Source: an uncultured Lachnospiraceae bacterium (GTDB lineage Bacteria > Bacillota > Clostridia > Lachnospirales > Lachnospiraceae). Taken from it: DNA of 43,099 bases. Of the stretch, positions 7,934 through 25,215 are shown in pieces. A program made the translations under genes and the position numbers. Numbering within the stretch: the first letter of the stretch is position 1; each line of letters starts with the position of its first letter. Under the pieces are notes generated by a model that did no database searches, was not told the DNA's origin, and saw nothing but the letters and a program-made list of their open reading frames with translations. The stretch lies in contig CAMOGQ010000013.1 in NCBI GenBank assembly GCA_946614165.1, forward strand, positions 1-43,099, in the 5' to 3' direction.

Positions 7934-8860
7934 TCAGTTCTCCTGCACAGCGGCGGCTTCCTCCGCGGAGCGGAGGCGGCGCGTACTGCTGCAGGCAGAA
8001 GCGATCTTTTTAATATAGTCCAGTTCCGGGAAGGGGTCGAATTCCAGTGAGGCTGCCGTGGGCTTTTTGGAGACGGTCACGGGCATGGCCAGAAAACGGC
8101 CCCTTATAAAGAGGTCCATTTCGTTTCCGTGCAGGCTCAGGGCAGTATAGCCGGGGGTATAGGCGATCAGGTCCATGAGAGATTTCATAACGGCCGGGGA
8201 AGGCCTCTGGTCTTCCTCGTTCATGGGACGGTACAGAACGGCCTTTCCCTTCAGGGAAGGTTCTCCCAGCTCTGCGTGGAACATGACGGGATCCCTGTCG
8301 AAATAGGCCATGCGGATGGGCGTGGGGACCGCGGTCTCGTCAATAATGCAGTAGCGGTATCCCGAATCGGCAGGCAGCACCACGTGGGTCCAGACGCCCA
8401 CGTCAAAGTGCATCCGGTTCTTTCCGCCTTTTTTCAGCTCGAACTGCTGGGGAATGGAGACGTCGGAGATCTGCAGATGGAAGGGCCCCATATCGCCTTC
8501 CATGCCCCAGAAGAAAGAGGGAGAGCCGTCGCAGGGCATCATGCCGGCTCTTTTTATTGTGGAAGCGTTCAATCCGCCCGTACTCTTTCCGCTCACATCC
8601 TCCGCTCCGATCTTCTTCATGACGGTCAGTTCGATATTGGAGCGATTTACAAGTTCCGTATAGGCTTTCTGCTGCCTGCGGACATAAAAGATATGGAAGA
8701 CCATGGCCAGGCCCAGCAGGGCAAAGGCTGCATACCGGTTTATGAATAGACAGACCAGGGCAGCGATCAGCAGGGCCAGCACGGCCCAGACAGACATCCG
8801 GAATACCCTGTACTGTGAAAGAACTGTTTCAAGTGTAGCGCTGGTCTTCTCTGTTTTCAT
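7934..8860 (-). CDS. Two-helix membrane protein of unknown function
   Basis: This 308-residue protein has two closely spaced transmembrane helices (about residues 22-40 and 44-61), followed by a ~240-residue soluble domain likely in the cytoplasm. The soluble part contains LQISDVSIPQQFELKKGG, VMFHAELGEPSLKGKAV and FIRGRFLAMPV. The layout, two helices and then a beta-rich domain with a FxGxF-like segment, weakly recalls DUF3137 membrane proteins, but I cannot confirm it. GGGAGG lies before the start. It heads a three-gene minus-strand group with the YkgJ-like and LysR genes. Confidence 0.6.
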   Translation of the reverse strand: MKTEKTSATLETVLSQYRVFRMSVWAVLALLIAALVCLFINRYAAFALLGLAMVFHIFYVRRQQKAYTELVNRSNIELTVMKKIGAEDVSGKSTGGLNASTIKRAGMMPCDGSPSFFWGMEGDMGPFHLQISDVSIPQQFELKKGGKNRMHFDVGVWTHVVLPADSGYRYCIIDETAVPTPIRMAYFDRDPVMFHAELGEPSLKGKAVLYRPMNEEDQRPSPAVMKSLMDLIAYTPGYTALSLHGNEMDLFIRGRFLAMPVTVSKKPTAASLEFDPFPELDYIKKIASACSSTRRLRSAEEAAAVQEN

Positions 8861-9213: not shown

Positions 9214-10320
9214 ATGAAGAAATCTGTAAAAAGAATCCTTGCACTGATGACAGCAGCTGTGATGGCTGCCGGCATGATCGGATGCTCCGTAGGCGGCGGC
9301 TCCAGTTCCGCTCCCGCAGCTTCTTCCGAGAATGCAGGCACTGAGGCGGCAGCCGAGTCCGGCACCAGCAGTCTGAAGGGCCAGAACGTCCGTGTCGTCA
9401 TCGGCTCCACATCCACCTCCGGCGACTCCTACATGATCGCTGATCTGGTGACCCGTTATCTGTCCGCAGAGATGGGCTTCAACGGAAAGGTCGACGCCAT
9501 CGGCAACGCAGCAGCTCTGGAAGAGATGCAGAACCAGAAGGGTGACGGCACCACCGTTATGATGTTCCATGACATGACTTTCCTGAGCGTTCTGTTCGGC
9601 GCAGTCGATGAGGCATACAGCCTTGAGAACATGACCGTCGGTCCCCGCATCGGCCAGAACCCCGGCGCATGCTTCGGCGCAGCAGCGGAAGACAACTGGA
9701 ACAGCCTTGCAGACGTAACCAACTATATCAAAGAGACCGGCTCCGATGTTTCCTTCAACATTGAATCAGGCGCCACCTCTCACCTGGCATTTGCAGCTTA
9801 CTATCTGTGGGTCAAGGAGACCGAGGGCGAAGAAGTAGCTTCCCATATCAAGGCGATCGTCGGCGGTACGACCGCTGAAAAGCTCCAGAGACTGTGGGAC
9901 CGCAACGCAGACGTGATCTACGGCGATACTTCCGCATTCCAGCAGTATACAGAAGAAGGCGTTGACGCTCAGCTTAAGATGACCATGTTCGGTACCTGCG
10001 GCGAAGTCGAAGGCCTTGACGTTACTTCCATGGCAGACGAAGGCGTTACCTTTGAAGGCGCTCCTTTCGAATTCGCAAAGGATTTCTGCATGTACTTCCC
10101 CAAGGATATGGACGCAGGCGTTCTTGCCGAGTACGAAGCAGCTATGAAGAAGGTCACAGAGAACCCTGACTTCCAGAAAGATATGGCAGCCCTTTACTAC
10201 AACACTCTGAGCGCTGACGAAGTCGGCGTCGAAGCTTCCAAGGAATACATCTATGCAAAGAGAGAGACCTGCAAGGCTCTGATCGAGCAGGCTCCCAGCC
10301 TTGATGACATCGCTTTCTGA
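9214..10320 (+). CDS. TctC-type solute-binding lipoprotein
   Basis: This is the extracytoplasmic binding protein of a tripartite tricarboxylate-type (TTT) transporter, 368 residues. The N-terminus is a lipoprotein signal: KKSVKR, a hydrophobic stretch, then GMIGCS with the lipidated cysteine at residue 24. A Ser/Ala/Gly-rich tether runs to about residue 54, before the domain starts at VRVVIGSTSTSGDSYM. TctC proteins form a Venus-flytrap fold and bind carboxylates. It is followed by TctB and TctA, and aldarate-degrading genes lie downstream, so a sugar diacid is the likely ligand (inference). GGGAGG precedes the start. Confidence 0.9.
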   Translation: MKKSVKRILALMTAAVMAAGMIGCSVGGGSSSAPAASSENAGTEAAAESGTSSLKGQNVRVVIGSTSTSGDSYMIADLVTRYLSAEMGFNGKVDAIGNAAALEEMQNQKGDGTTVMMFHDMTFLSVLFGAVDEAYSLENMTVGPRIGQNPGACFGAAAEDNWNSLADVTNYIKETGSDVSFNIESGATSHLAFAAYYLWVKETEGEEVASHIKAIVGGTTAEKLQRLWDRNADVIYGDTSAFQQYTEEGVDAQLKMTMFGTCGEVEGLDVTSMADEGVTFEGAPFEFAKDFCMYFPKDMDAGVLAEYEAAMKKVTENPDFQKDMAALYYNTLSADEVGVEASKEYIYAKRETCKALIEQAPSLDDIAF

Positions 10321-10429: not shown

Positions 10430-10867
10430 ATGATTAATGTTGTTTATTCAACAGAGCACTGGATCGTTCCCAGGATCGTCATGGGCGTTCTGGTCGTACT
10501 TCTTCTGGCAATCATCATCACGGAAGGCCGCGCCAGAGTGAGTGAAGGCGGGTCCTTCCTTGCAAAGCCCGGCAGATTCTTTATCGACGGCTACGACAAG
10601 GTAAAGCTGTGGGGAACGCTGATCCTCTTTGCCGGCTACATCTTTGTCATCGACAAGGTGGGCTTTACTGTTACTTCCATGATCTTCGTTCTTCTGTTCA
10701 ATCTGCTCTATGCGGGCCTCGGAAAGAAACAGGTCCTGGTCAGCGTGATCATCGCCATCGTTGCGCCGCTTATCATTTCCATTATGTTCGGCGTTGTTTT
10801 CAATATCACGCTTCCCAAGGGAATGTGCAGCATTACGTTCGTAGACTACGGATTTACAATCTATTAA
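10430..10867 (+). CDS. TctB-type small membrane subunit of a TTT transporter
   Basis: This 145-residue protein has four hydrophobic segments (about residues 13-31, 60-75, 79-97 and 101-122), the size and layout of TctB. TctB is poorly conserved and is recognised mainly by its place between TctC and TctA. It pairs with the large permease to form the membrane part of the importer. An RBS (GAGGG) precedes the start. Eighteen bases separate it from tctA. Confidence 0.85.
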   Translation: MINVVYSTEHWIVPRIVMGVLVVLLLAIIITEGRARVSEGGSFLAKPGRFFIDGYDKVKLWGTLILFAGYIFVIDKVGFTVTSMIFVLLFNLLYAGLGKKQVLVSVIIAIVAPLIISIMFGVVFNITLPKGMCSITFVDYGFTIY

Positions 10868-10885: not shown

Positions 10886-12364
10886 ATGATTACAATCACC
10901 AAACTTCTTGTTGCGATCCTGGGCGTTGTCGTCGGTATCGTGTTCGGTGCCATCCCCGGCATGACTGCCACCATGGCGGTCGCCGTATTCCTTCCCCTGA
11001 CCTATGCCTATGATCTGGAGACAGCCCTCTGGCTTCTCCTGGCCCTGTATGTCGGCGGTATCTCCGGCGGTCTGATCCCCGCGATCCTGATCAACATTCC
11101 CGGCACACCGTCCTCTATTACCACCACTTTCGACGGCTATCCCATGGCCAAGAGAGGGGAAGGCGAAAGAGCTCTGAAGACAGGTATCGTATCCTCCTTC
11201 ATCGGCGGCATGATTTCTCTGGTGGCTCTGTGGCTGTTCACACCCATCCTTTCTTCGGCAGCACTGAAGTTTTCTTCTGTCGAGAAATTCCTGATCATCC
11301 TCTTTGCCCTGACCGTTATTGCGGCTCTGTCCAAAGGCCAGATGCTGCGCGGCATCTTCGCAGGCTTTCTGGGAGTTCTGGTCACGCTGGCCAACTCTTT
11401 CAGCGTCAACAACCAGTACCGCATGGTGCCTGCTTTCCTGAAATCCAAGATGTCTGACGGCTTCCAGCTGCTTCCCTGCCTGATCGGCCTGTTCGCGATC
11501 GCCCAGATCTTCGAAGAGGCGGAAGAGGGTATGAACTTCAAGATTCAGAAGACGGATTCCGAACTGGAAGGCGATGTCAAGTTCTCCCTGTCCGACTTCA
11601 AGGGACAGGGCGTGAACGTGATCCGGTCCTCGCTGATCGGCACCTTCATGGGCGTACTTCCCGGCGTCGGCGGCTCCGCAGCCTCCATTCTGGCTTATGC
11701 CCAGGCAAAGAACTTCTCCAAGCATCCCGAGCTTCTGGGCACGGGCGTGCCGGAAGGTCTGATCGCCTCTGAATCTTCCAACAACGGTCTGACGGGCGGC
11801 GCTCTGATCCCCCTGCTGTCCCTGGGTATTCCCGGTGACTCCACCACCGCTGTTCTGATCTCCGCATTCATGCTGCAGGGCATTCAGGTAGGACCTCTGT
11901 TCATCACCCAGAATCCTCACACCTGGAACACCATCCTGGTAGCGCTGCTGGCCGCCAACATCATTATGTTCCTGGTCATGTTCTTCCCGATCAAGCTGAT
12001 CAGCAAGATCATTTATATTCCCAGGACAAGACTCTATCCCGTTATCATCATGATCTGCATCGTAGGTGCCTATGCCACCAAGAACGGTCGTATATTCGAC
12101 GTATGGGCCCTTCTGATCTTCGGTATTCTGGGCTATATCTTCGGCAAGATCAAGATTCCTGCATCCTGCTTCCTGATCGGCTTCATTCTGGGCGATGACC
12201 TGGAGAACTATTTCATCCAGTCCATCTCTGCAGCAAACGGAAGTCTGACCGTCTTCTTTACCAGACCCATCGGCTGGGTCATCTGGCTTCTGATCATTGC
12301 CTCCGTCGCATATGCGATCTGGGATGACAGAAAGGACAAGAAGAAAAAGGCAGCAGCAAAATAA
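10886..12364 (+). CDS. TctA-type large permease of a TTT transporter
   Basis: TctA is the ~12-helix permease that moves the carboxylate using an ion gradient. The protein has 492 residues, a typical length. Family signatures are clear: the glycine-rich GIVFGAIPGMTATMAV near residue 20, and INIPGTPSSITTTFDGYPMA around residues 70-90. A second inverted-repeat copy lies mid-protein: MGVLPGVGGSAAS, then LSLGIPGDSTTAVL. GGAGG precedes the start. It completes a tctC-tctB-tctA operon. Confidence 0.95.
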   Translation: MITITKLLVAILGVVVGIVFGAIPGMTATMAVAVFLPLTYAYDLETALWLLLALYVGGISGGLIPAILINIPGTPSSITTTFDGYPMAKRGEGERALKTGIVSSFIGGMISLVALWLFTPILSSAALKFSSVEKFLIILFALTVIAALSKGQMLRGIFAGFLGVLVTLANSFSVNNQYRMVPAFLKSKMSDGFQLLPCLIGLFAIAQIFEEAEEGMNFKIQKTDSELEGDVKFSLSDFKGQGVNVIRSSLIGTFMGVLPGVGGSAASILAYAQAKNFSKHPELLGTGVPEGLIASESSNNGLTGGALIPLLSLGIPGDSTTAVLISAFMLQGIQVGPLFITQNPHTWNTILVALLAANIIMFLVMFFPIKLISKIIYIPRTRLYPVIIMICIVGAYATKNGRIFDVWALLIFGILGYIFGKIKIPASCFLIGFILGDDLENYFIQSISAANGSLTVFFTRPIGWVIWLLIIASVAYAIWDDRKDKKKKAAAK

Positions 12365-12444: not shown

Positions 12445-13767
12445 ATGAAGACAGTAGAAAAAAACGGCGTGGTTGCAGGCCTGCTGAAAGATGTGCAGAT
12501 TCCCCGGATGTTCCGGGCCAGGCAGGATTTTCCAAGGCCCCTGATCCGGCCGGAGGAGATCCCGGACGTTGTCTTTAAGGAGCTTTCTCAGGAGAAATTT
12601 GCCTCCAAAGTACAGCCCGGTATGGAGATCGCTATCACAGCCGGAAGCCGGGGCATTGCCAACGTGGATATCATTACCAGGGCAGTGGTGGACTTTGTCA
12701 AAAGCAGAGGGGCTGTGCCTTTTATCGTACCTGCCATGGGAAGCCACGGAGGAGCGACGGCCCAGGGCCAGCTGGAGATCCTGGCGGGATATAAGATCAC
12801 CCCGGAGACCATGGGGTGCGAGATCCGCTCCAGTATGGAGACGGTCTATCTGGGAGAGTCCGGATCCGGCCGCCCGGTCTACATGGACCGGAACGCCTAT
12901 AATGCGGACGGTATTATTATTTCCTGCCGCCTGAAGCCCCACAATGCATTCCGGGGAAGCGTTGAGTCCGGTCCCTGCAAGATGATGACCATAGGCCTTG
13001 GCAAGCAGAAGGGGGCTTCCAACGTCCACGCCGACGGCATGGACCGCATGGCGGTAAACATCCCTTCCATGGCGGAGGTGGTCCTTGCAAAGGCCCCTGT
13101 CCTCTTTGCCATTCCCTGCATGGAGAACGCTTACGACGAGACCTGCAGGATCGAAGCCATCGACGCCTGCGACATTCTGAAGCGGGAGCCTGAGCTTCTG
13201 AAATACGCCTTCTCCAACATGCCTTCCATCCTGGTGGGAAAGGCTGATGTCCTGGTAGTAGACCTGATCGGCAAGAACTTTTCCGGAACGGGAGTGGACC
13301 CCAACATTACGGGGACCTTTTCCACCGACTGCTGCAGCGGAGGCCTGCAGGTCCAGAGGACCTGTTTCCTGGACCTTTCGGAGGAGTCCCACGGCAATAC
13401 TCTTGGCGTAGGTCTTTCCAACGCCATCACCCAGAGAATCTTTGACAAGATGGACCTCAATGCCATGTATCCCAACTGTATTACCAGCACAGTCCTGGCT
13501 TCGGCCCGGATCCCCTGCATCATGCCCTCGGATAAGACGGCCATCCAGATGTGCATCCGGACCACCAACAAGGTGGACCAGTCCCCGGACAAGCTTCGTA
13601 TGGTCAGGATCCCCAATTCCCTTCACGTGGGAGAGATCATGCTGAGCGAATCCTATTATCAGGAGGTCCTGGAAGGAAAATATCCCGGTCTGACCGCCAT
13701 CGACGAGCCCGCTCCCCTGGTCTTTGACGAAGAGGGAAATCTTCTGACCCCTACGGTCCGTTCTTAA
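12445..13767 (+). CDS. LarA-like nickel-pincer isomerase (DUF2088-type)
   Basis: This 440-residue protein matches the lactate racemase (LarA) superfamily, whose members use a nickel-pincer nucleotide to move a hydride at the alpha carbon of 2-hydroxyacids. Candidate active-site residues fall in LarA-like order and spacing: His101 (MGSHGG), His166 (LKPHNAF), Lys179 (SGPCK) and His195 (SNVH). In L. plantarum LarA the corresponding residues are 108, 174, 184 and 200. TAGSRGI near residue 68 probably holds another active-site arginine. It is not LarA itself: the length fits but the sequence is distant, like the uncharacterised homologue groups. It lies between a TTT transporter and an AEC permease in an aldarate locus, so epimerisation of a sugar diacid is inferred. 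LarB, LarC and LarE are not in the window. Confidence 0.7.
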   Translation: MKTVEKNGVVAGLLKDVQIPRMFRARQDFPRPLIRPEEIPDVVFKELSQEKFASKVQPGMEIAITAGSRGIANVDIITRAVVDFVKSRGAVPFIVPAMGSHGGATAQGQLEILAGYKITPETMGCEIRSSMETVYLGESGSGRPVYMDRNAYNADGIIISCRLKPHNAFRGSVESGPCKMMTIGLGKQKGASNVHADGMDRMAVNIPSMAEVVLAKAPVLFAIPCMENAYDETCRIEAIDACDILKREPELLKYAFSNMPSILVGKADVLVVDLIGKNFSGTGVDPNITGTFSTDCCSGGLQVQRTCFLDLSEESHGNTLGVGLSNAITQRIFDKMDLNAMYPNCITSTVLASARIPCIMPSDKTAIQMCIRTTNKVDQSPDKLRMVRIPNSLHVGEIMLSESYYQEVLEGKYPGLTAIDEPAPLVFDEEGNLLTPTVRS

Positions 13768-13907: not shown

Positions 13908-14843
13908 ATGTCAGCATTATTACACGATCCGGCCCTGGAGGGGCTTCTGGGCCTCATGGGTCAGATGTTTATTTTTGCCGTCTGCGGCATTGTCCTCCGC
14001 AGAAAGAAGATCCTGCCCGACCAGGCCAGGACCATCCTGACAGACCTGGTCATGGATCTGATCCTGCCCGCAAATATCATTCATTCCTTTGAAGTGGAGT
14101 TCTCCTTCAGCATCCTGCAGAAATTCCTGCTGATCCTGGTCATTGCATCGGCGGCCCAGGCAGTCAGCATGGTCTTTGCGGGGACCCTGTGGAAGGGGCA
14201 GCCGGCCCATATGAAGCGGGTCCTTCAGTACGCCACTCAGGTCTCCAACTCGGGCTTTCTGGGAAATCCTGTCTGTGAAGGGGTCTACGGGGCGGAAGGC
14301 CTGATGTATGCCTCGGTCTTTCTGATCCCCCAGCGGATCGTCATGTGGTCCGCCGGCCTTGCCTATTTCACGGATGATCCGGACTGGAAGGGGACCCTGA
14401 AAAAGGTGGCCCGCCATCCCTGCATCATTGCAGTCTATATAGGCATGTTCCTTATGATCACCCAGCTGCCCCTGCCGGATGTGGCTGAAAAGAGTCTTGT
14501 CAGACTGGGCGGCTGCACCATCCCCCTCAGCATGATCCTGATCGGCATGATGATGGCGGACGTGGATTTCAGGACCCTGGTATCTCCTATGGTAGTGGCC
14601 GTTACGGCCATCCGCCTGTTTCTCCTGCCCGGGATCACCTACCTGGGCTGCCTTCTTTTTCATGTGGATCCCCTTCTGACGGGCGTCTCCGTCCTTCTGG
14701 TGGGCATGCCCTGCGGATCCACCACGCCCATTCTGGCCTCCAAGTACGGAGGAGACTATATTTTTGCCAGCAAATGCGTCTTCTTTTCGACGCTCATGTC
14801 CCTGTTTTCCGTACCCGTCTGGTGCATGATCATGGGCGTCTGA
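13908..14843 (+). CDS. AEC-family (auxin efflux carrier-like) permease
   Basis: This 311-residue integral membrane protein has about ten hydrophobic helices arranged as two five-helix halves, as in the AEC family that includes bacterial malate permeases. Typical segments are LVMDLILPANII near residue 50, VSNSGFLGNPV near 120, and GMPCGSTTPILASKYGGD near 275. Bacterial AEC proteins often carry organic acids, so it may export or import a hydroxyacid of this pathway. It ends directly against the stop codon of the convergent regulator gene with no gap. Its RBS (AAGGAAAAG) is modest. Confidence 0.88.
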   Translation: MSALLHDPALEGLLGLMGQMFIFAVCGIVLRRKKILPDQARTILTDLVMDLILPANIIHSFEVEFSFSILQKFLLILVIASAAQAVSMVFAGTLWKGQPAHMKRVLQYATQVSNSGFLGNPVCEGVYGAEGLMYASVFLIPQRIVMWSAGLAYFTDDPDWKGTLKKVARHPCIIAVYIGMFLMITQLPLPDVAEKSLVRLGGCTIPLSMILIGMMMADVDFRTLVSPMVVAVTAIRLFLLPGITYLGCLLFHVDPLLTGVSVLLVGMPCGSTTPILASKYGGDYIFASKCVFFSTLMSLFSVPVWCMIMGV

Positions 14844-16787
14844 TCAGGACTCAAAACTGGCTTCAATGCCGTATTTTTTCATTTTGCGCCAGAGAGTGGT
14901 AGTGCTGATGCCCAGCTCTTCGGCGGTCTGGGCCCGGTTGCCTCCGTTCTTCTGGAGAATGTTCTTAAGCTCCAGGGCTTCTGGCGTTTCATAGACCACC
15001 AGGCGGTTTTCGCCTTCGACCTTCCGGATATTGGGATAAAGATCGTCGTAGGTCTTCTGTATATAGATCTCGTCGACACTGCGTTTTTTGGCGCACAGGA
15101 CCAGACGCTCCACAAAGGAATGCAGCTGGATCCGGTTCCCTTCCCACTGAAGGGAAAGGATCTTTTTTCTGCCCCCTTCTGTCAGTTTCAGGGGCCGCTT
15201 GTAAGTCCTGACGGCTCTGGTAAATTCCTCATCGAAAATAAAAGCCAGGTCCTCCGGCCTCTCGTTCAGAGTCGGGATCTTCAGGGTCAGGCCCTGGAGC
15301 TGGTAGTAGAGGGTGGGAAGGAAGGCCCCGCTGTTCACCTGGTCAAGAAGATCAACGGAGGAGAGGCAGATGATCCGGGCATCCAGGGCCTGAAGGGACT
15401 GGGTATCCGTCCGGAGAATGTTGCCCTGCAGCATGGTCTTGGACAGAAGCATCTGGACGGAAGGCTTTAACTTTCTGATTCCGATGATGAAGAGGGTGCC
15501 GTGGTCCGCCCGGCTGAGGGCTCCCCGGGACCTGTCGGCGCTTTCGGTCCTCTCTTTCCGGCCGAAAAGGACCGGCTCCTGGTCTTCCTGGTCTATGCCC
15601 AGGAGGTTGACGGTCACAAAGGGACCGCCCCGGCGGGCCGAGGAATTGTGTATGGCTTCGGCGATGGCATAGGATTCGACCACGTTGCTGCCGTAGATCA
15701 GGATCGGGCTGTCGGAGAGGGCATAAGCCCTTGCGTTGACCAGCATATCCTGCATGTCTTTATTACGCGTGGTGATGTCGGAAAAGCTGGAGGTGGCCAT
15801 AAATCCGCTGTGCAGCAGTTCCTTGCGGGTCGCCGAGGTCTGCAGGGATGCCGTGCTGACGCCGTGCAGGGAAAGAATGGCGCCGGTCACAGTATCGTTG
15901 TAGCGGATAGAGGTCATGAGGACCATCCAGGCCCGGCTGCGGATGGTGATAGAGGTGGTCAGATCCTCCCTGGCTCCTTCCAGGACCTGGCGGACTGCAT
16001 TGAGGTCGATCTGAGGGAGGACCTCCTGCAGAGGAGCTCCGATGATCTCTGCCGAGGGCCTGCCCAGCAGTTCCTCCACCATCTTGTTGACCACAATGAC
16101 GCTGCAGGAGGTGTTGACCCGGATGATGCCGTTGGCGGAGGTGTCCAGGATGGCTTCGAACTGGGCCGATGAGAGCTTGTCCTTTTCCATGGCGGCAGCG
16201 GTCTGCAGAGCTTCGTGAAAGGCCTCCCGGATGGATTCCTCGGTGGAACTGTAAAAGAGGGCGGGATAGCCGGCCTGGGAGGCCAGAGTGCAGGTGGTGT
16301 CGCCTCCTATGAAAAGATCAGGAGACAGCAGAGACATTTCCCGGATGGTCTCGGGGATCTCCTCACTGGATTCTATGTAGCGTACGTCCAGGGTCACGCC
16401 CAGCAGATTTCCGATATAGGAAATGTTGGAGATCTGATTGCTGAAGGCGATCAGGGCGATGCGGGGCCGCTCCTTCTGCAGGATGGTCTTGGCGCTCTGT
16501 ATGACCAGGGCGATCTCCTGGGCATGGAGTCGCATTTCCACGACAGGGATGTTGGTATAGCGCTCGATCAGACGGGCCTGATAGCCCCTGGCGATCAGAA
16601 GGTCGGCGCCGGCTTCCACGGCGGCACGGGCTTCCGAGATGGTATCGATGGTATCGATGTGCTTGAGGTAAACGACGTTGAGCCGATTGTCTTCGATGAT
16701 CCGGCGGGCGGTCTCTACCATTTCCTGTCTGGGCAGAAGGACGCCCAGGTTCAGGCTGGAGGGCTGGGCTATGACTTTGGTATCCAT
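14844..16787 (-). CDS. PrpR-like regulator with a degenerate sigma54 AAA+ domain
   Basis: The 647 residues have four parts. A PrpR_N-type sensor (about 10-195) is followed by a PAS-like domain (about 205-310), a remnant of the sigma54-activator AAA+ domain (about 335-560) and a C-terminal Fis-type HTH (about 605-645, NRAQTAEELGISTTTLWRKM). The AAA+ domain aligns by eye with NtrC-type domains, but the Walker A motif is IYGSNVVESY (about 364-373) with no GK. The GAFTGA loop is absent after LFGRKERTES, and Walker B reads HGTLFIIGI without the DE pair. It is therefore unlikely to hydrolyse ATP or drive sigma54 promoters. It is divergent from garR and convergent with the AEC gene, so it is the likely regulator of the locus. 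Confidence 0.85.
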   Translation of the reverse strand: MDTKVIAQPSSLNLGVLLPRQEMVETARRIIEDNRLNVVYLKHIDTIDTISEARAAVEAGADLLIARGYQARLIERYTNIPVVEMRLHAQEIALVIQSAKTILQKERPRIALIAFSNQISNISYIGNLLGVTLDVRYIESSEEIPETIREMSLLSPDLFIGGDTTCTLASQAGYPALFYSSTEESIREAFHEALQTAAAMEKDKLSSAQFEAILDTSANGIIRVNTSCSVIVVNKMVEELLGRPSAEIIGAPLQEVLPQIDLNAVRQVLEGAREDLTTSITIRSRAWMVLMTSIRYNDTVTGAILSLHGVSTASLQTSATRKELLHSGFMATSSFSDITTRNKDMQDMLVNARAYALSDSPILIYGSNVVESYAIAEAIHNSSARRGGPFVTVNLLGIDQEDQEPVLFGRKERTESADRSRGALSRADHGTLFIIGIRKLKPSVQMLLSKTMLQGNILRTDTQSLQALDARIICLSSVDLLDQVNSGAFLPTLYYQLQGLTLKIPTLNERPEDLAFIFDEEFTRAVRTYKRPLKLTEGGRKKILSLQWEGNRIQLHSFVERLVLCAKKRSVDEIYIQKTYDDLYPNIRKVEGENRLVVYETPEALELKNILQKNGGNRAQTAEELGISTTTLWRKMKKYGIEASFES

Positions 16788-17084: not shown

Positions 17085-17969
17085 ATGAAAGTTGGATTTA
17101 TCGGACTCGGAATTATGGGCAGACCCATGGCAAAGAACCTGATCAAGGCCGGTTATGACGTAGTAGTATTTGATTTCAACCCCGCAGCAGTCGAGGATCT
17201 GGCATCCTGCGGCGCCCAGAAGGCAGCCTGCGGCAAGGAAGTGGCATCCCAGGCCGATGTAGTCATCACCATGGTTCCCAATTCTCCCCATGTCAGAAGC
17301 GCAGTCTTCGGCGCCAACGGCATTGCGGAAGGTGCTCATGAAGGTCTTGTATTCATCGACATGAGCTCCATCGACCCCGTGGAATCCAAGAAGATCGCAA
17401 AGGATCTTGAGCCCTACAACATCCCCATGCTGGATGCTCCCGTTTCCGGCGGCGAACCCAAGGCCATCGACGGTACTCTGTCCATCATGGTGGGCGGCGA
17501 GAAGGAACTCTTCGACAGGTTCTTTGATCTTCTTTCCGTCATGGGCGGTTCTGTAGTCTATGTAGGCCCTATCGGCTCCGGCAATGTTGCCAAGCTGGCC
17601 AACCAGATGATCGTCGCCATCAACATCGCAGCCTGCGCAGAAGCCTTCACATTCGCCAAGAAGGCAGGCACAGATCCCGAGCTGGTCTATCAGGCCATCC
17701 GCGGCGGCCTTGCAGGCTCCACCGTTATGGACGCAAAGGTTCCCATGATGCTGGACGGCAACTACAAGCCCGGCTTCCGCATCGCCCTGCATACCAAGGA
17801 TCTGACCAATGCCCTGAACGCGGCCCACGCCATCAACAGCCCCGCTCCCTTCACCGCATCCGTTATGGAGATCCTTCAGTTCCTCAACGCTCATGAGTGC
17901 GGCGCCGATGACCATGATGCCATCGTCAAGTACTACGAAGCGATCTCCGGTACCAGCATCGTAAAATAA
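17085..17969 (+). CDS. garR: Tartronate semialdehyde reductase (2-hydroxy-3-oxopropionate reductase)
   Basis: This beta-hydroxyacid dehydrogenase family enzyme has 294 residues. The NAD(P) motif is GFIGLGIMGRPMAKNL at residues 4-19. The substrate-binding DAPVSGG is at 117-123, and the catalytic lysine is Lys170 (NVAKLANQ). In glucarate and galactarate breakdown GarR reduces tartronate semialdehyde to D-glycerate. Relatives act on 3-hydroxyisobutyrate, but the next three genes (aldolase, gudD, garD) make the GarR role very likely. GGAGG precedes the start. It is the first gene of the catabolic operon. No glycerate kinase is present in the window. Confidence 0.9.
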   Translation: MKVGFIGLGIMGRPMAKNLIKAGYDVVVFDFNPAAVEDLASCGAQKAACGKEVASQADVVITMVPNSPHVRSAVFGANGIAEGAHEGLVFIDMSSIDPVESKKIAKDLEPYNIPMLDAPVSGGEPKAIDGTLSIMVGGEKELFDRFFDLLSVMGGSVVYVGPIGSGNVAKLANQMIVAINIAACAEAFTFAKKAGTDPELVYQAIRGGLAGSTVMDAKVPMMLDGNYKPGFRIALHTKDLTNALNAAHAINSPAPFTASVMEILQFLNAHECGADDHDAIVKYYEAISGTSIVK

Positions 17970-18040: not shown

Positions 18041-18937
18041 ATGAATACAGACCACATTAAAGGCGTAATCGTTCCTATTATCACGCCCATTGACAAAGAA
18101 GAGAGAATCGATGAAGTCAGGATGCGCAGACAGGTGGATTTCGTCATTGACGGCGGCCTGGACGGTATCCTCGCTTTCGGTTCCAACGGTGAGTTCTATC
18201 AGGTAGAAGAAGATGAGATGGAGCGCGGCCTGCAGATCATGATCGATCAGGCGGCCGGCAGAGTTCCCGTCTATTTCGGCATCGGCGCCATCAACACAAA
18301 GAAATGCGTCCGTCTGGCAAAAATGGCTGCAAAGTATGAGATCGGCGGCATTTCCGTTCTCCAGCCCATGTTCCTTAAGCCTACGGAAGCAGAGCTTTTC
18401 GCTCACTTCAAGGCTATCGCGGACGCTGTTCCGGATACCCCCGTTCTGATCTACAACAACCCCGGCCGCGTGGGCTATACCCTCAGCGCAGGTCTTGTGG
18501 AGAGAATGGCGCATATGATCCCCAATATCGTAGGTATGAAGGATACCTCCGGCGATATGACCCAGACGGAAGAGTTCATCCGCAGGAACCGTGACATCGG
18601 TTTCAAGGTGTTCGGCGGCAAGGATACCCTTCTTTACGTCAGCCTCTGCTGCGGCGCCGTGGGCGGCGTATGCACGGCCGGCAACTTTATGCCCGAACTG
18701 ATCACGGCTGTCTATGACAGATTTATGGAAGGAGATCTGGAGGGAGCAAAAGAGGCCCAGTTCAAGGTCAATCCCGTCCGTCTTGCCATGGATGCGGCTT
18801 CCTTCCCCGTAGCGGCCAAGGATATGGCCAATCTGCGCGGCCTGGATATCGGCGTTCCCTACCTGCCCAGCATGCCTTCTCATCCGGCAGCCTACGAGCA
18901 CATCAAGGACGCCATGGAAAAGTCAGGCCTGATCTGA
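18041..18937 (+). CDS. DapA-family aldolase, probably for 5-keto-4-deoxyglucarate
   Basis: This 298-residue class I aldolase of the dihydrodipicolinate synthase family has GSNGE at 47-51, the catalytic Tyr138 (IYNNPGRVGY) and the Schiff-base Lys167 (GMKDTSGD). It lies between garR and gudD. GudD and GarD both yield 5-keto-4-deoxyglucarate. In E. coli a metal-dependent GarL cleaves it to pyruvate and tartronate semialdehyde, and no GarL is seen here. Because GarR needs tartronate semialdehyde, I infer that this enzyme does the retro-aldol step. The alternative, KdgD-type decarboxylating dehydration, would need a semialdehyde dehydrogenase, which is absent. Confidence 0.8.
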   Translation: MNTDHIKGVIVPIITPIDKEERIDEVRMRRQVDFVIDGGLDGILAFGSNGEFYQVEEDEMERGLQIMIDQAAGRVPVYFGIGAINTKKCVRLAKMAAKYEIGGISVLQPMFLKPTEAELFAHFKAIADAVPDTPVLIYNNPGRVGYTLSAGLVERMAHMIPNIVGMKDTSGDMTQTEEFIRRNRDIGFKVFGGKDTLLYVSLCCGAVGGVCTAGNFMPELITAVYDRFMEGDLEGAKEAQFKVNPVRLAMDAASFPVAAKDMANLRGLDIGVPYLPSMPSHPAAYEHIKDAMEKSGLI

Positions 18938-18993: not shown

Positions 18994-20325
18994 ATGAGAA
19001 GAATCGAAAAAATGGAAGTCTATCCCGTAGCGGGACATGACTGTATGGAACTGAACCTGAGCGGCGCCCACGGCCCCTATTTCACCAGAAACGTTGTCAT
19101 CCTGACAGACTCCGAAGGCAACGAAGGCATCGGTGAAGTTCCCGGCGGCGACAAGATCACAGACGCTCTGAACGAAGTCAAGTTCCTTGTAGAAGGCACC
19201 AACCTGGCCGAATACAAGACCACCCTGCGCAAGGTGGAAGAGTACCTGGCAGCCAAGGGCGAAGAGGATGTCCGCGGCAACCAGACATTTGACCTGCGTA
19301 CCGGCGTTCATGTAAAGACAGCCATCGAAGCTCCCTGCCTTGACCTTCTGGGCAAGATGATGGGCGTTCCCGTAGCAGAGCTTCTGGGCGAAGGACAGCA
19401 GAGAGACAAGGTCCGTATGCTGGGCTATCTCTTCTTTGTAGGCGACCCCAACAAGACCGATCTGGAATACATTCATGAGCCCGATGCGGACTGCAAATGG
19501 TACAGGATCCGTCATGAAGAAGCCATGACTCCCGACAAGATCGTTGAATTCGCCGTAGCTACCAAGGAAAAATACGGCTTTACCGATTTCAAGCTCAAGG
19601 GCGGCGTTCTTCCCGGCGACCAGGAGATGGAATGCATCCGCGCCATGAAGAAGGTATTCCCCGAATCCAGATTCGACCTGGATCCCAACGGCGGCTGGCT
19701 CCTTTCCCAGGCCGTGGAATATGTCAAGGGCATGCAGGGCATCCTGACCTACTGCGAAGACCCCTGCGGCGCTGAAGGCGTTTATTCCGGACGTGAGATC
19801 GTATCCGAATTCCGCAGAAAGACCGGCTTCCCCACAGCTACCAACATGATCGCCACCGACTGGAGAGAGGTGGGCCATGCACTGGAGTCCCAGGCTGTGG
19901 ATATCATCCTGGCAGACCCTCATTTCTGGACCATGGCCGGTTCCGTCCGCGTTGCCCAGATGTGCCATGACTTCGGCTATACATGGGGCAGCCATTCCAA
20001 CAACCATTTCGACATCTCCCTGGCCATGTTCACCCAGGTCGGCGCGGCAGTCCCCGGCTTCTACAACGCCCTGGACACCCACTGGATCTGGCAGGAAGGC
20101 ATCGAGCGCCTGACCAAGGAGCCCCTGCAGATCATTGACTCCTGCGTGGAAGTCCCCGCAAAGCCCGGCCTCGGCGTCGAGATCGACAGAGACCAGCTCA
20201 TGAAGGCACATCAGCTGTATCTGGACAAGTGCTACAAGAAGGGCGCCAGAAACGACGCTATCGGCATGCAGTACCTGATCCCCGGCTGGAAATTCGACCC
20301 CAAGAGGCCCTGCCTGGTCCGCTGA
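18994..20325 (+). CDS. gudD: Glucarate dehydratase
   Basis: This enolase-superfamily enzyme dehydrates D-glucarate (and L-idarate) to 5-keto-4-deoxyglucarate. The protein has 443 residues. Active-site residues match E. coli GudD with a constant offset of five: Lys200 and Lys202 (FKLKGG), metal ligands Asp230, Glu255 and Asn284 (DPNGGW, CEDP, TNMI), Asp308 (ADPH) and His334 (GSHSN). A magnesium ion in the cytoplasm is the cofactor. AAAGGG precedes the start. It is third in the garR-aldolase-gudD operon, which ends at a terminator before garD. Confidence 0.96.
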
Positions 20326-20459: not shown

Positions 20460-21983
20460 ATGGCAAGACGAGTATGTATTCAGATCACTGAAAAGGACAA
20501 CGTAGCCATAGCGATCCATGACATAGCAAAGGGGACAGAGGTCATGCCCGGCGTTGTGACGGCAGAGGATATTCCGCAGGCACACAAGATCGCTTTAAAG
20601 GACCTGCCGGAGGGAAGCGAGGTCATCCGCTACGGCGTGGTTCTGGGAACCACAGACAGGGATATCCCCTGCGGCGGCTGGATCAACGAGACCAACCTGA
20701 TCATGGCCCCGGCTCCCGACCTGGATTCCATGGAATTTGCCACCAATATCCGCACAGATCTGCCGCCCGCTCCCGAACTTTTCTGGGACGGCTACAGGAA
20801 TCCGAACGGAGGCCCCGGTGGCACCAGGAATATCCTGGCCATCAATACCACGGTCCAGTGCGTGGCCGGTGTTGTCAACGTGGCCATCCGCAGGATTAAA
20901 CAGGAGATCCTGCCCAAATATCCGAATGTGGACAATGTCATTGCGATCAACCACCCCTACGGCTGCGGCGTGGCCATTGATGCCCCCGAAGCAAAGGTCC
21001 CCCAGAGGATCCTGCGCAATATCGCCACCCATCCCAATTTCGGCGGTGTTTTCATGCTGGTGGGCCTGGGCTGCGAGAAATTCACCGTGGACCGTTTCTG
21101 TGAGTGGTGGCCAGAGCTCAATACCCCCGAGAATGTCATTGTGCTGCAGCAGCACAGGGGCTATGACGCAATGATAAATGCCATCATGGAGATGGCCGAG
21201 AAGAAGCTGAAGATCCTGAACGAAAGAAAGAGAGAAAAGCTTCCCCTGTCTGATCTTCTGGTGGGCATGCAGTGCGGCGGCTCTGATGCCTTTTCCGGCA
21301 TTACAGCCAACCCCACCGCAGGGTACGCTGCGGACCTGATCGTTTCCGGCGGCGGCACCGTTATGTTCTCGGAAGTTACCGAGGTCCGGGACGGCGTCCA
21401 GTTCATCGCCCATCGCTGCATCAGCGAAGAAGTGGGAAAACGCCTGGTGGAAGAGATGAAGTGGTATGACAATTATCTGAAGATGGGCGGCGTGGACCGC
21501 GGTGCCAATACCACTCCCGGAAACAAGAAGGGCGGCCTCTCCAACATCATAGAGAAATCCATGGGCTCCATCGCCAAGTCCGGTTCCTCCCCTATTGTGG
21601 AGGTCCTTTCTCCCGGTGAAAAACCCACGAAGCACGGCGAGATTTTTGCGGCTACCCCTGCCTCCGATCTGGTATGCGGTCCTTCCCAGCTGGCCTCCGG
21701 CATGGGGCTGGAGGTCTTTATGACCGGCCGAGGCACGCCCTACGGCCTGGCTGCGGCGCCTGTGGTCAAGCTCTGCTCCAGGAACGAGATGAAAGAGCAG
21801 TGGCCGGACATCATTGACTTCAACGCAGGTCCCGCTGCAGTAGGCGACAGAACTATCGCAGAGCAGGGCACAGAGCTTTTCTACTACATCCTGGATGTGG
21901 CCAGCGGACGAAAGAAACCCTATACAGAGCAGTACGGGCTTGAAAACGATCTGTGTGTCTTTAATCCTGCTCCCATTACCTGA
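20460..21983 (+). CDS. garD: Galactarate dehydratase
   Basis: This UxaA/GarD-family enzyme dehydrates galactarate (mucate) to 5-keto-4-deoxyglucarate, joining the gudD route. The protein has 507 residues. A short SAF-like N-terminal domain (about 1-90) precedes the large metal-binding domain: GGTRNILAINTTVQC near 120, NHPYGCGV near 163, GMQCGGSDAFSGITANP near 265, and TGRGTPYG near 425. Altronate dehydratase (UxaA) is the nearest alternative; the glucarate neighbours favour galactarate. The RBS is GGAGAAAGGA. It lies behind a terminator, so it may be regulated apart from gudD. Confidence 0.88.
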   Translation: MARRVCIQITEKDNVAIAIHDIAKGTEVMPGVVTAEDIPQAHKIALKDLPEGSEVIRYGVVLGTTDRDIPCGGWINETNLIMAPAPDLDSMEFATNIRTDLPPAPELFWDGYRNPNGGPGGTRNILAINTTVQCVAGVVNVAIRRIKQEILPKYPNVDNVIAINHPYGCGVAIDAPEAKVPQRILRNIATHPNFGGVFMLVGLGCEKFTVDRFCEWWPELNTPENVIVLQQHRGYDAMINAIMEMAEKKLKILNERKREKLPLSDLLVGMQCGGSDAFSGITANPTAGYAADLIVSGGGTVMFSEVTEVRDGVQFIAHRCISEEVGKRLVEEMKWYDNYLKMGGVDRGANTTPGNKKGGLSNIIEKSMGSIAKSGSSPIVEVLSPGEKPTKHGEIFAATPASDLVCGPSQLASGMGLEVFMTGRGTPYGLAAAPVVKLCSRNEMKEQWPDIIDFNAGPAAVGDRTIAEQGTELFYYILDVASGRKKPYTEQYGLENDLCVFNPAPIT

Positions 21984-22083: not shown

Positions 22084-22461
22084 TCAGGCTTTGTCGACGG
22101 ATCTGGTCACGATCAGATCCGCGTCATAGCCAAGGACTTTTGAAAGGATGACTGTGCCTTCTTTTACCGGAGCCTCCAGAGTGATTCCACGGATGGCTTC
22201 CATGACCCGGAAGATCTCCTTTTTGGGAACGGGCGCCGTCAGGCGGACGCTGGCAAGGGGCATTTCTCCCCCTTTTACGGCTGCGGAGCTGGCAATGGTC
22301 CTGCGGGGATCCGTCAGTTCCTGACGGACATATTCTTCGCCTCGCCGGCAGGTCTGGCCTTCCACGCTTCTTATAATAAGACTGCCGTCTTCTTTCTTTT
22401 CATAATCTGCCGTGATCCGGCAGCCGTTCGGACATACGATACAGGTAAATTCTCTTTGCAT
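22084..22461 (-). CDS. DUF1667 cysteine-motif protein
   Basis: This 125-residue protein starts with the DUF1667 cysteine motif CIVCPNGC, plus a further cysteine in GQTCRRGEEYV, which probably ligate an iron-sulfur cluster or zinc. DUF1667 proteins are regularly encoded after a GlpA-like dehydrogenase and an FAD oxidoreductase in Firmicutes and are thought to be a small electron-transfer or assembly subunit (established as context, not as biochemistry). It follows the oxidoreductase by 13 bp. Its start has AAGGAGG-type spacing in the preceding gap. Confidence 0.85.
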   Translation of the reverse strand: MQREFTCIVCPNGCRITADYEKKEDGSLIIRSVEGQTCRRGEEYVRQELTDPRRTIASSAAVKGGEMPLASVRLTAPVPKKEIFRVMEAIRGITLEAPVKEGTVILSKVLGYDADLIVTRSVDKA

Positions 22462-22474
22462 CTTTCTTTCCTCC

Positions 22475-23710
22475 TTACTGCGAGATGGATACGGTGATGC
22501 TGCCTTCTCGGGAAAGCTTTTCCTTACGGATCTTCAGCTGGATCATTTCCGCCGGCAGGACCTTTTTCATCTTTCTTTCCAGGATGATATTTTCTCCCTG
22601 GGAGACCTTCAGCCTTACATCCTGCATGGGCCGTCTGGGCCGGAGGGAAAGAAGGAAGTCTCTTTCTCCGCTGACTTTCTGGGGAAGGGCGTGGCCCACG
22701 TTGTCCCCTGCCGTAACGGAAACAAGGCACTCCGGAAGAGAACCCTCCCGCACATAGGCGGCAGCGCCCTCTGCCAGGGCTTCCGCCTCCATGGAGACAA
22801 AGTCTACCAGATCATGGACATGAAGGACGTTTCCGGCGGCAAAGATGCCGGGGATATCGCTCTGGTAGAATTCATCCACCAGGGCCCCTTTGGTATGATC
22901 GTCCAGGGAGGCGCCGGCCCCCAGGGTCAGCTCGTTTTCGGGGATTAGGCCTACGGACAGGATCAGCGTGTCGCAGGCATATTCTTTTTCGGTGCCGGGA
23001 ATGGGCTGCATATGGTCGTCGACCTGTGAGATGGTAACGCTCTCCAGGCGGTCCGTGCCCTTGATATCCGTGACGGTATGGGAAAGGTACAGAGGGATGC
23101 CGTAATCGTTCAGGCACTGTTCGATGTTGCGGGGCAGTCCCGATGCCACGGGCATGACTTCGAAGACGGCTATGACATGGGCCCCTTCCAGGGTCAGGCG
23201 CCTTGCCATGATCATGCCGATATCTCCGGAGCCCAGGATGACGACCTCTTTTCCGATCATGCGGTTCTGGAGATTGATATAGGCCTGAGCTACGCCGGCC
23301 GTCATGACGCCGGCGGGCCGGGTGCCGGGGATGGCCAGAGCGCCTCTGGTCCTTTCCCGGCAGCCCATGGTCAGGATCACGGCCTTTGCCTGCACCTGCA
23401 GAAGGCCCGCTTCCCCTGCTGCCGTTACCAGTTTATCCCTGGTGATCTCAATGACAGTGGTATCCGTGATATAGGGGATCTGCCTTTTTTCCACTTCCCC
23501 TATAAAGCGGGAGGCATACTCGGGGCCGGAAAGACTGACGCCGAAGCGGGTCAGCCCGAAGCCGTCGTGGATGCACTGGCGGAGGATCCCGCCCAGGGAA
23601 TGTTCTCTTTCCAGGATCAGGATATCCCTGATCCCCATATCATAAAGCCGGACTGCGGCGGCAAGGCCCGCGGGGCCTCCGCCTACGATGACTACATCTG
23701 CGTATTTCAT
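22475..23710 (-). CDS. NAD(P)/FAD-dependent oxidoreductase, GlpA partner
   Basis: This 411-residue flavoprotein has a first FAD-binding motif VVIVGGGPAGLAAA at residues 6-19 and a second dinucleotide motif VVILGSGDIGMIMARRL near 175. A C-terminal FAD-contact segment is IPGIFAAGNVLHVHDLVDF. It belongs to the pyridine nucleotide-disulphide oxidoreductase-like proteins that accompany GlpA and DUF1667. It probably passes electrons from the dehydrogenase to NAD or another carrier. The start overlaps the end of the GlpA-like gene by 4 bp (ATGA), a sign of coupled translation. GGGGAGAAG precedes it. Confidence 0.88.
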   Translation of the reverse strand: MKYADVVIVGGGPAGLAAAVRLYDMGIRDILILEREHSLGGILRQCIHDGFGLTRFGVSLSGPEYASRFIGEVEKRQIPYITDTTVIEITRDKLVTAAGEAGLLQVQAKAVILTMGCRERTRGALAIPGTRPAGVMTAGVAQAYINLQNRMIGKEVVILGSGDIGMIMARRLTLEGAHVIAVFEVMPVASGLPRNIEQCLNDYGIPLYLSHTVTDIKGTDRLESVTISQVDDHMQPIPGTEKEYACDTLILSVGLIPENELTLGAGASLDDHTKGALVDEFYQSDIPGIFAAGNVLHVHDLVDFVSMEAEALAEGAAAYVREGSLPECLVSVTAGDNVGHALPQKVSGERDFLLSLRPRRPMQDVRLKVSQGENIILERKMKKVLPAEMIQLKIRKEKLSREGSITVSISQ

Positions 23711-25185
23711 GCTTCTCCCCTTACCTTTCCTGTAAAAATGACCCCGTTTTCTCTCTGGTAGCGGATATCCTCCGGCGCAATGCCCAGCTCCTCTTCCAGC
23801 ATTTTTGTGATCCTGGTCTGGCAGTATCCGCCGTTGCAGCGGCCCATCATGGACCTGGTCCTGTTCTTGATGCCGGTCAGGGTATGGACGCCCAGAGGAT
23901 TGTGAATGGCACTGAGGATCTCTGCCCGGGAGACATTTTCACAGCGGCAGACGATCTGGCCGTAGTCGGGATTTTCCGATATGGCCTTTTTCCGCTCTTC
24001 CATGGTCATCTCCGAAAAGCGCCTTGGGACTTTCCGGCAGGGATCGAAGGAGGCGTTGGGAGAAAGGGGCTTGCCTTCCTTCTCCTGGCGGTCCAGGATC
24101 TTCTGTACGGCCCTTCTGGCCAGAGGCAGAGCGCAGGTCACGCCGGGGGATTCAATGCCCACCAGATTGACGCTGCGGCCCTTTTCCGGATCCGCTTCCA
24201 GGATAAAGTCCAGGACCTCGCCGGTCTTTTCGTCGCAGTTCTTCCAGCGGATGCCCGCAAAGTTGCGGATGAAATAGTCCCGCTTCATCTGATGGAACAT
24301 GATGCTGCCGTCTTTGAAGAGAGAGTCCAGTCTGTCCCTGCGGTTGGCGTAGTCCTCCCGGCCTTCTGTCAGATAAGAGTCGGGACCCACCAGGATATTG
24401 CCGTCCACGGTGGGGGTGGCGTGGGTGGCAAAGCCGCCCTTGTCGTTGGGAGCGGGGTAGACGGGAATGGAAAGATATTTTCCCGCCTTTTTGTCCAGCA
24501 CGTAGTATTCGCCCTTAAAGCCCTTCTGGTAATATTCGGGATAGCCCAGCATGGCAGAGACCATGGGAGAGAAGGCCCCTGCGCAGTTGATGACCCAGCG
24601 GGAGGAGAAATCTCCCTTTTCTGTATGCAGGATCCAGAGGTCCCCGTCACCTGGCCGGTCAATGGAGGCGACGCCTGCACCGAACAGGAAGGAGGCTCCG
24701 TTTTCTGCGGCATTCTCCGCCAGGGCGATGGTATACTGCATGGGATCCAGGATACCGGAGGAAGGCACGTACATGGCGAAATTTCCGCCGGCATACGGCT
24801 CTATGGCCTCTATCTCCTCCCGGGTCTCCAGCATGCGGATGCCCTTTACTCCGTTCCGTTCTCCGTTTTCCCTGAACTTCAGGATATTCTCCCGGTCATG
24901 GTCCGTAAAGCCCACCACCAGCTTGCCGGTCCTTTTAAAGGGGACGGAAAGTTCGGCGGCCACAAGGTCGAATTCCTGGTTGCCTTCCACCGCGCACTCA
25001 GCCTTGAGACTTCCGTTCTTATAGGTGAAGCCCGCATGGAGCATGCCGGTATTGCGGCTGGAGTTGCCCGTGGCCACGTCCAGCTCCTTTTCCAGGACCA
25101 GGATCTTCAGATCCCACCTGGACAGTTCCCTTGCAACGGCGCATCCTACGACTCCCGCGCCGATCACTGCTGCATCATAGATCAT
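23707..25185 (-). CDS. GlpA-like FAD dehydrogenase with a C-terminal [2Fe-2S] domain
   Basis: This 492-residue protein has a DAO-type FAD domain: VIGAGVVGCAVARELS at about residues 7-22, then SSRNTGMLHAGFTYKNGSLKA near 45. A BFD-like [2Fe-2S] domain (about 415-475) carries the cysteine pattern CRCENVSRAE and GRCNGGYCQ. This is the layout of anaerobic glycerol-3-phosphate dehydrogenase subunit A and its relatives; the HAGFTYKNGSLKA segment also recalls L-2-hydroxyglutarate oxidase. No glpK or glpF is nearby, so the substrate is open. The start at 25185 has GGAGG upstream; a GTG-type start further up lies in the RBS. It heads a three-gene operon. Confidence 0.85.
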   Translation of the reverse strand: MIYDAAVIGAGVVGCAVARELSRWDLKILVLEKELDVATGNSSRNTGMLHAGFTYKNGSLKAECAVEGNQEFDLVAAELSVPFKRTGKLVVGFTDHDRENILKFRENGERNGVKGIRMLETREEIEAIEPYAGGNFAMYVPSSGILDPMQYTIALAENAAENGASFLFGAGVASIDRPGDGDLWILHTEKGDFSSRWVINCAGAFSPMVSAMLGYPEYYQKGFKGEYYVLDKKAGKYLSIPVYPAPNDKGGFATHATPTVDGNILVGPDSYLTEGREDYANRRDRLDSLFKDGSIMFHQMKRDYFIRNFAGIRWKNCDEKTGEVLDFILEADPEKGRSVNLVGIESPGVTCALPLARRAVQKILDRQEKEGKPLSPNASFDPCRKVPRRFSEMTMEERKKAISENPDYGQIVCRCENVSRAEILSAIHNPLGVHTLTGIKNRTRSMMGRCNGGYCQTRITKMLEEELGIAPEDIRYQRENGVIFTGKVRGEA

Positions 25186-25215
25186 ATGCTGCCTTCCTCC
25201 TCTCATCAGACAGTT

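Follow-up and report, generated by a model that had tools for sequence, protein, structure and literature searches.

The 43,099-nucleotide stretch of DNA described here (contig CAMOGQ010000013.1 of assembly GCA_946614165.1, from an uncultured Lachnospiraceae bacterium; the whole stretch is referred to as the window) encodes, at 12445..13767 on the forward strand, a 440-amino-acid homologue of the lactate racemase LarA. Our results support the assignment of this protein as a LarA-type enzyme of a distant homologue group that is tied to aldarate (sugar diacid) catabolism, with the genes for maturation of the nickel-pincer nucleotide (NPN) cofactor present in the genome. We think it probable that the protein uses NPN to epimerize hexaric acids at C2 (C5), the carbon next to the carboxylate. 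An aldarate as substrate and epimerization at C2 are predictions, and they are the best supported of those we considered.

The reading frame is open, with an ATG start, and its product matches Pfam Lar_N at 29.7 bits (gathering threshold 23.3) and Pfam DUF362 slightly below threshold (23.6 bits, gathering threshold 24). The family is given by NCBIfam NF052515 (NPN_iso_grp_22, nickel pincer cofactor-dependent isomerase, group 22), which covers residues 19–409 at 521.2 bits (cut-off 400). The next-best LarA group, the malate racemase Mar2/LarAH6 profile, reaches 24.5 bits. Mar2/LarAH6 is the nearest characterized relative by profile score, although the NCBIfam equivalogs for malate racemases (LarAH5/6) give the window protein only 20.3 and 24.5 bits against cut-offs of 462 and 500. 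Sequence searches of the PDB returned no usable match (Mar2 at E 0.1 and 0.88, a LarA-like entry at 0.39, and otherwise NADH peroxidases and other noise).

A preliminary description of this DNA, made from its letters, had placed the protein in a distant LarA group and named four residues of lactate racemase that it keeps, and both statements hold. Each of His101, His166, Lys179, and His195 is found where it was said to be, and all four are invariant in a 50-row alignment (A1, picked from 105 group-22 homologues). They are also kept in all 82 rows of the close clade defined below (window counted), in both sister rows, and in 20 of 20 distant rows. An hhalign comparison with 29 other LarA homologues (241 columns aligned, probability 93.8, E 1.8e-7) pairs the four with LarA His108, His174, Lys184, and His200, and pairs Arg69 with LarA Arg75, so that the cofactor/nickel ligand set Arg75, Lys184, and His200 is matched. 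By homology, His101 and His166 would be the catalytic pair, and Lys179 and His195 would be ligands of the cofactor and nickel. Lys164 and Lys277 are also invariant in A1, and Lys277 could stand in for LarA Lys298. The second histidine is followed by Asn167-Ala168 in 82 of 82 close-clade rows; in the distant proteins, Thr replaces Asn167 in 19 of 20, and the next position is mostly Asp (10) or Ala (5). The window protein thus lacks both the Glu-Val reported at this place for the gluconate epimerases (GntEs) and the Phe-Phe reported for lactate racemases (PMC11770544).

The preliminary description held that absence of the maturation genes would count against a nickel-dependent aldarate 2-epimerase. 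In the genome (3.78 Mb, 88% complete), larE (326.6 bits), larB (282.5), and larC (200.2, with a LarC2 match of 136.4) are adjacent on contig C7, all above their cut-offs. The window gene is the only Lar_N match found there (E 0.001), so no other client for larB, larC, and larE was found. In a sample of 293 genomes of the same class as the window genome (the class sample), LarC occurs in 15 of the 17 genomes with a group-22 gene versus 119 of the 276 without (Fisher p 2.5e-4), and it was detected in 46 of the 50 close-clade genomes searched. Distant group-22 genes at L107 and L116, and those of two plasmid relatives, lie within ~3 kb of lar maturation genes. Elsewhere in the window, 38995..40131 (forward strand) encodes a CbiM plus PDGLE protein, a component of cobalt or nickel uptake and a possible nickel source.

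The tie to aldarates begins with the locus itself. As the preliminary description had it, the gene is situated between a carboxylate transporter (TctC-like, TctB, and TctA genes upstream) and the genes for glucarate and galactarate dehydration, with GarR, a DHDPS-family lyase, GudD, and GarD encoded downstream. To place this in context, 84,980 species genomes were scanned, a search that reaches close relatives only; 97 relatives were found and the best 80 loci kept (63%–100% identity), many of them shortened by contig ends. Neighbors were named from their similarity to window genes or to a single representative scanned for each cluster. The LarA homologue of Lachnospiraceae bacterium UBA3287 (L012) is 100% identical and in the same locus as the window, and that of L008, which comes from another assembly, is 91% identical; TctCBA lies immediately before it, and the DNA fetched there also includes genes for DHDPS, GarR, and GudD. 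At least one of the GudD, GarD, GarR, and DHDPS genes is present in the fetched DNA of 43 of the 80 loci, and in 33 the LarA homologue has an aldarate gene of the same strand as its immediate neighbor (median gap 63 bases). Counted over the 80 loci, the adjoining positions are occupied by DHDPS 11 times, GarD 10, GudD 8, AEC 7, and GarR 5. Long operons occur; that of L077, for instance, reads TctB2-TctA-RpoN-LarAH-DHDPS-AEC-GarR-GlyK-GudD-GarD.

Of the 37 loci whose fetched DNA shows no aldarate gene, L012 has the same locus as the window; for each of the remaining 36, the whole genome was searched. GudD and GarD are both present in the same 32 of these 36 (two of them with one partial gene), against a class-sample background of eight genomes with GudD and nine with GarD. 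The Fisher value for GarD is 6e-32, which overstates the enrichment because of shared ancestry. By source, the 80 loci comprise 66 Bacillota, seven Synergistota, five Actinomycetota, one Spirochaetota, and one other, and the fetched DNA shows an aldarate gene in 38, three, none, one, and one of these, respectively. When the genomes of the five Actinomycetota were searched whole, three (L070, L073, and L074) had both dehydratases and two (L071 and L081) had neither.

A profile search and tree, proposed in the preliminary description as a check, place the protein within group 22 in a compact clade. In a quick tree of 104 group-22 proteins, in which several distant rows are long-branched, 82 rows form one clade (Shimodaira–Hasegawa-like approximate likelihood ratio test support 100) with L106 and L109 as sister (support 98). 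L040 and L108 stand for a single gene present in two collections, and each has its own row; L120, which has an in-frame stop, was left out. The sister pair is likewise found in gar operons, and loci with aldarate genes occur in every main branch of the clade, with loci lacking them interspersed (a clustered but patchy pattern). The window clade is 37%–53% identical to the other sampled group-22 members. The aldarate tie spans the clade of at least 63% identity plus L106 and L109, and L102 (46%) is also near GarR and DHDPS genes. Close-clade genes were found in Clostridia, Negativicutes, Erysipelotrichia, Synergistota, Spirochaetota, and gut Actinomycetota.

Group-22 scores in the class sample are split cleanly, being at least 474.8 bits (17 genomes) or at most 52.5. 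All three of the 17 genomes that carry a close-clade or sister-pair gene (G000, G101, and G142) have GudD and GarD, and the remaining 14 have GarD once (G180) and GudD once (G117). We conclude from this contrast that the aldarate tie belongs to this clade and not to group 22 at large. The idea that group 22 as a whole is an aldarate family was rejected, given true GarD in four and GudD in four of the 17 genomes.

Distant members are found in the order MR/MLE-TctCBA-LarAH-UxaA-UxaA in Sporomusa termitida, uxaC-LarAH-SDR-larE-larB-larC on a Paenibacillus plasmid, and araD-DHDPS-altronate dehydratase-LarAH-LarC in Pseudosulfitobacter, and further ones adjoin GntP, KdgT, TRAP, or zinc-type dehydrogenase genes. 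With uxaC, araD-type genes, altronate-type dehydratases, and sugar-acid transporters beside them, sugar acids are the common theme. Some members are off this theme: L114 and L116 adjoin a CoA-transferase gene, and L110 is in a branched-chain-type ABC transporter operon.

In the mechanism that we propose, an aldarate would enter via the Tct or AEC transporter. Its 2-hydroxy group would be oxidized by transfer of hydride to the NPN cofactor (held by Lys179, with the nickel held also by His195), His101 or His166 would take the proton, and the 2-keto intermediate would be re-reduced from the opposite face; either end of the diacid could serve. GudD would then draw on the glucarate class of acids and GarD on the galactarate class, and the route would run on through the DHDPS-family aldolase, GarR, and glycerate kinase. 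Proton-coupled hydride transfer via NPN is carried over from LarA by homology, and we infer both the cofactor loading and the substrate.

Why one epimerase should accompany two dehydratases can be seen from a computed enumeration in which hexaric acids differing at C2 or C5 were joined. This sorts the ten acids into three closed classes: D-glucarate, D-mannarate, and L-idarate; galactarate, D-altrarate, L-altrarate, and allarate; and L-glucarate, L-mannarate, and D-idarate, which is the mirror of the first. No 2-epimerase can make GudD or GarD dispensable, since glucarate and galactarate belong to separate classes; this fits the joint presence of the two dehydratases in the 32 genomes noted above. 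If one epimerase supplied both, seven of the ten acids would become usable, a reason to expect one such gene here. We give even chances to the broader proposal of a clade of nickel-pincer hexarate 2(5)-epimerases through which seven of the ten hexaric stereoisomers are funneled into the substrates of two dehydratases, allowing anaerobes to use mannarate, altrarates, idarate, and allarate with GudD and GarD as the sole further catabolic enzymes.

If the proposed function is correct, glucarate should be converted to mannarate and idarate alone and galactarate to altrarates and allarate alone, neither class giving rise to members of the other. A substrate class would be assigned to one clade within LarA group 22 (listed by NCBI only as an isomerase), hexaric acids would join the main substrates of NPN enzymes, and gut anaerobes would have a simple means to widen their sugar-diacid diet. 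Epimerization of aldarates may also serve in making chiral diacids.

Interconversion of epimeric aldarates is known from enzymes of another kind. The glucarate and galactarate/talarate dehydratases of the enolase superfamily interconvert glucarate with idarate and galactarate with talarate during catalysis, but by magnesium-assisted proton abstraction and not by a nickel hydride mechanism. Among NPN enzymes, GntE1/LarAH19 of Corynebacterium glutamicum and GntE2/LarAH20 of Thermotoga maritima are D-gluconate 2-epimerases, and glucarate-to-mannarate epimerization has been proposed for GntE1, of group 19 (Desguin et al. 2020, PMC7583248). They resemble our proposal as sugar-acid 2-epimerases that use NPN and differ from it in belonging to other LarA groups, with Glu-Val in place of Asn-Ala after the second histidine. 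LarAH32 of Geobacter metallireducens, a 2-hydroxyglutarate racemase, has a weak C2-epimerization activity on the pentaric acids ribarate, arabinarate, and xylarate (kcat/KM 13), close to our proposal as a side activity on aldarates, but its main substrate is turned over ~1000-fold better (Urdiain-Arraiza et al. 2024, PMC11770544). Epimerization of tartrate by malate racemases was also measured in 2024 (PMC11770544), and residues equivalent to LarA His174 and Lys298 are missing in some LarA groups (PMC7583248). NF052515 itself is a family without an assigned substrate; the window protein exceeds its cut-off but is part of a compact, aldarate-linked clade. The preliminary description regarded an aldarate-specific LarA enzyme as new. 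This stands to the extent that searches of open-access papers aimed at such an enzyme found none specific for hexarates, but the idea of an aldarate epimerase is not wholly new: the family is catalogued as group 22, aldarate epimerization was suggested in 2020 for another LarA group, and activity on pentarates was measured in 2024.

Several observations weigh against a hexarate epimerase. In the hhalign alignment, LarA Asp72 is opposite a gap and LarA Lys298 is outside the aligned block. No LarC match was found in four of the 50 searched close-clade genomes (L065, L071, L072, and L086) or in two of the 17 group-22 genomes of the class sample (G062 and G172). The group-22 gene of G172 is intact; that of G062 is L120, whose in-frame stop would be accounted for by gene decay following loss of the cofactor genes. 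GudD and GarD are both absent from four of the 36 genomes searched whole (L026, L071, L080, and L081), and group 22 at large is unlinked to galactarate, with true GarD in only four of 17 genomes. Five of the nine GarD genomes of the class sample have no group-22 gene, so the pathway runs without it and the enzyme would be an addition rather than a required step. GudD itself is known to interconvert glucarate and idarate, which would lessen the need for the LarA homologue. Haloferax volcanii carries a group-22 member, and lactate racemase activity was reported for this species in 1995 (review table, PMC7700177). Genomic context mispredicted the substrates of several LarA homologues (Desguin et al. 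2020, PMC7583248), and no activity for group 22 was found in the literature searched, on the assumption that NCBI group numbers equal those of the 2020 paper.

Other substrates can be drawn from the same neighborhoods. The glucarate/galactarate pathway itself includes 5-keto-4-deoxyglucarate, tartronate semialdehyde, and glycerate, all of them 2-hydroxy acids, and the enzyme could act at C2 of one of these, matching the handedness needed by the aldolase, GarR, or glycerate kinase. The contacts of the LarA homologue with DHDPS and GarR genes (11 and five positions) agree with this, and a glycerate-preferring LarA homologue, LarAH43, exists (PMC11770544). However, LarAH43 belongs to the lactate racemase group (PMC11770544), elsewhere the LarA homologue adjoins GarD (10) or GudD (eight), and three distant plasmid relatives accompany sugar-acid/uronate genes, none annotated as GarR in the stretch shown. 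Overall, we consider a later acid of the pathway an unlikely substrate. It is improbable, in our view, that the protein is an aldonate 2-epimerase like the GntE enzymes, acting on, for example, mannonate/gluconate or altronate. The Paenibacillus plasmid relative, between uxaC and an SDR gene and ~6 kb from gndA and zwf, would suit such an activity, as would the gluconate-type and KdgT-type transporters that adjoin L111 and L116, but the proteins at these loci are distant group-22 members (37%–45% identical), whereas the window clade is linked to aldarate genes (with both dehydratases in most of the genomes searched whole) and has Asn-Ala, versus the Glu-Val reported for GntEs.

The LarA homologue might instead serve the neighboring redox module (22084-25206 in the window), converting a 2-hydroxy acid to the form that its flavoenzyme oxidizes. 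The FAD gene of this module occurs in 24 of the 80 loci, and in 11 a module gene is directly adjacent to the LarA homologue on the same strand; in nine loci the fetched DNA contains the module but no aldarate gene, and the FAD-gene representative resembles L-2-hydroxyglutarate oxidase (222 bits, under the cut-off of 299). We nevertheless rate this as improbable too, given that 56 loci show no module FAD gene in the fetched DNA, that some of these (L054, L056, L076, L078, and L086) have a full aldarate operon, and that GudD and GarD occur in the genome of every one of the nine module-only loci. Finally, the protein might retain the fold yet no longer use NPN, as its very weak likeness to solved LarA enzymes (best phmmer match Mar2, E 0.1) and the unmatched Asp72 would allow. 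However, no variation is seen in the two catalytic histidines, Lys179, or His195, and larC, larB, and larE are present though no other Lar_N gene was found, making loss of the cofactor very improbable.

As for the locus, a LysR gene and two further genes, all on the opposite strand, precede the TctC-like gene. The TctC-like solute-binding protein (9214..10320, forward) has no Pfam/NCBIfam match and was identified by its place before TctB and TctA, with homologues recurring in relatives. TctB (10430..10867, forward; Pfam) and the TctA permease (10886..12364, forward) of the tripartite tricarboxylate transporter follow, the latter stopping 80 bases upstream of the LarA homologue. On the reverse strand, 7934..8860 encodes a hypothetical protein without a Pfam match; homologues of it occur in eight of the 80 relatives, adjoining the TctC gene in seven and GudD in L053. 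Downstream of the LarA homologue, an AEC-type permease (13908..14843, forward; Pfam Mem_trans) and a regulator on the reverse strand (14844..16787) precede the pathway genes, all forward. GarR, the 2-hydroxy-3-oxopropionate (tartronate semialdehyde) reductase (17085..17969), scores 455.8 bits (cut-off 397). The DHDPS-family lyase (18041..18937) is under every cut-off (175 bits for dapA, 98 for KdgD); with GarR adjoining, a KdgD dehydratase is less likely than an aldolase that yields pyruvate and tartronate semialdehyde, and the protein is probably a 5-keto-4-deoxyglucarate aldolase. The GudD-type glucarate dehydratase (18994..20325; 703 bits) is 125 bits short of its equivalog cut-off of 828.7, and the GarD-type galactarate dehydratase (20460..21983; 728.6 bits) ~2 bits below its own of 730.85. 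Both nonetheless score far above other members, the class-sample gap for GarD being from 728 to 328 bits. The window GudD has the lysines, metal ligands, and His-Asp pair that we take to be the expected catalytic residues.

A second GudD paralogue, 51%–53% identical to the window GudD, is present in nine group-22 loci (L018, L020, L036, L043, L053, L055, L056, L058, and L078). An inactive GudX-like form was considered, but the catalytic residues looked for are intact; its aldarate may differ.

The redox module, on the reverse strand, is convergent with garD. It consists of a DUF1667-like protein of 125 amino acids (22084..22461), a Pyr_redox_2 FAD/NAD oxidoreductase (22475..23710), and an FAD-dependent oxidoreductase of LhgO/GlpA type with a BFD-like end (23707..25206). 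The first matches 18 of 18 members of a cluster (41%–59% identity) whose representative matches Pfam DUF1667. The last matches 24 of 24 members (55%–71% identity) of a cluster whose representative matches DAO and Fer2_BFD, its type being assigned by likeness. The module may oxidize a 2-hydroxy acid of the aldarate pathway.

The regulator at 14844..16787 (PrpR/DhaR-type) matches PrpR_N, PAS, and sigma-54-activator-like profiles. Because it is PrpR-like, the window was searched for sigma-54 −24/−12 sites, and none was found at one mismatch or fewer to the consensus. There was no match to rpoN in the 88%-complete genome, and no Walker A or GAFTGA motif was found in the AAA domain of the regulator. 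Control by sigma-54 in this genome was therefore dropped; the regulator is probably a sigma-54-independent descendant of a sigma-54 activator. A scan for sigma-70 promoters was uninformative (10 sites in the window versus 10.3 expected), and terminator-like sites exceed expectation (29 versus 15.5).

In 10 other loci (L054, L056, L058, L068, L069, L076, L077, L079, L082, and L085; the rpoN label was scanned in L076 and assigned by cluster in the others), an rpoN gene adjoins or is near the group-22 gene within the aldarate cluster, as though these clusters had a sigma-54 factor of their own. A DUF362 protein is encoded near the end of the aldarate cluster in L019, L034, L054, L056, and L077 (L056 scanned, others by cluster). 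DUF362 served as outgroup in the LarA superfamily tree of the 2024 paper (PMC11770544), so the pathway may include two LarA-like proteins in these loci.

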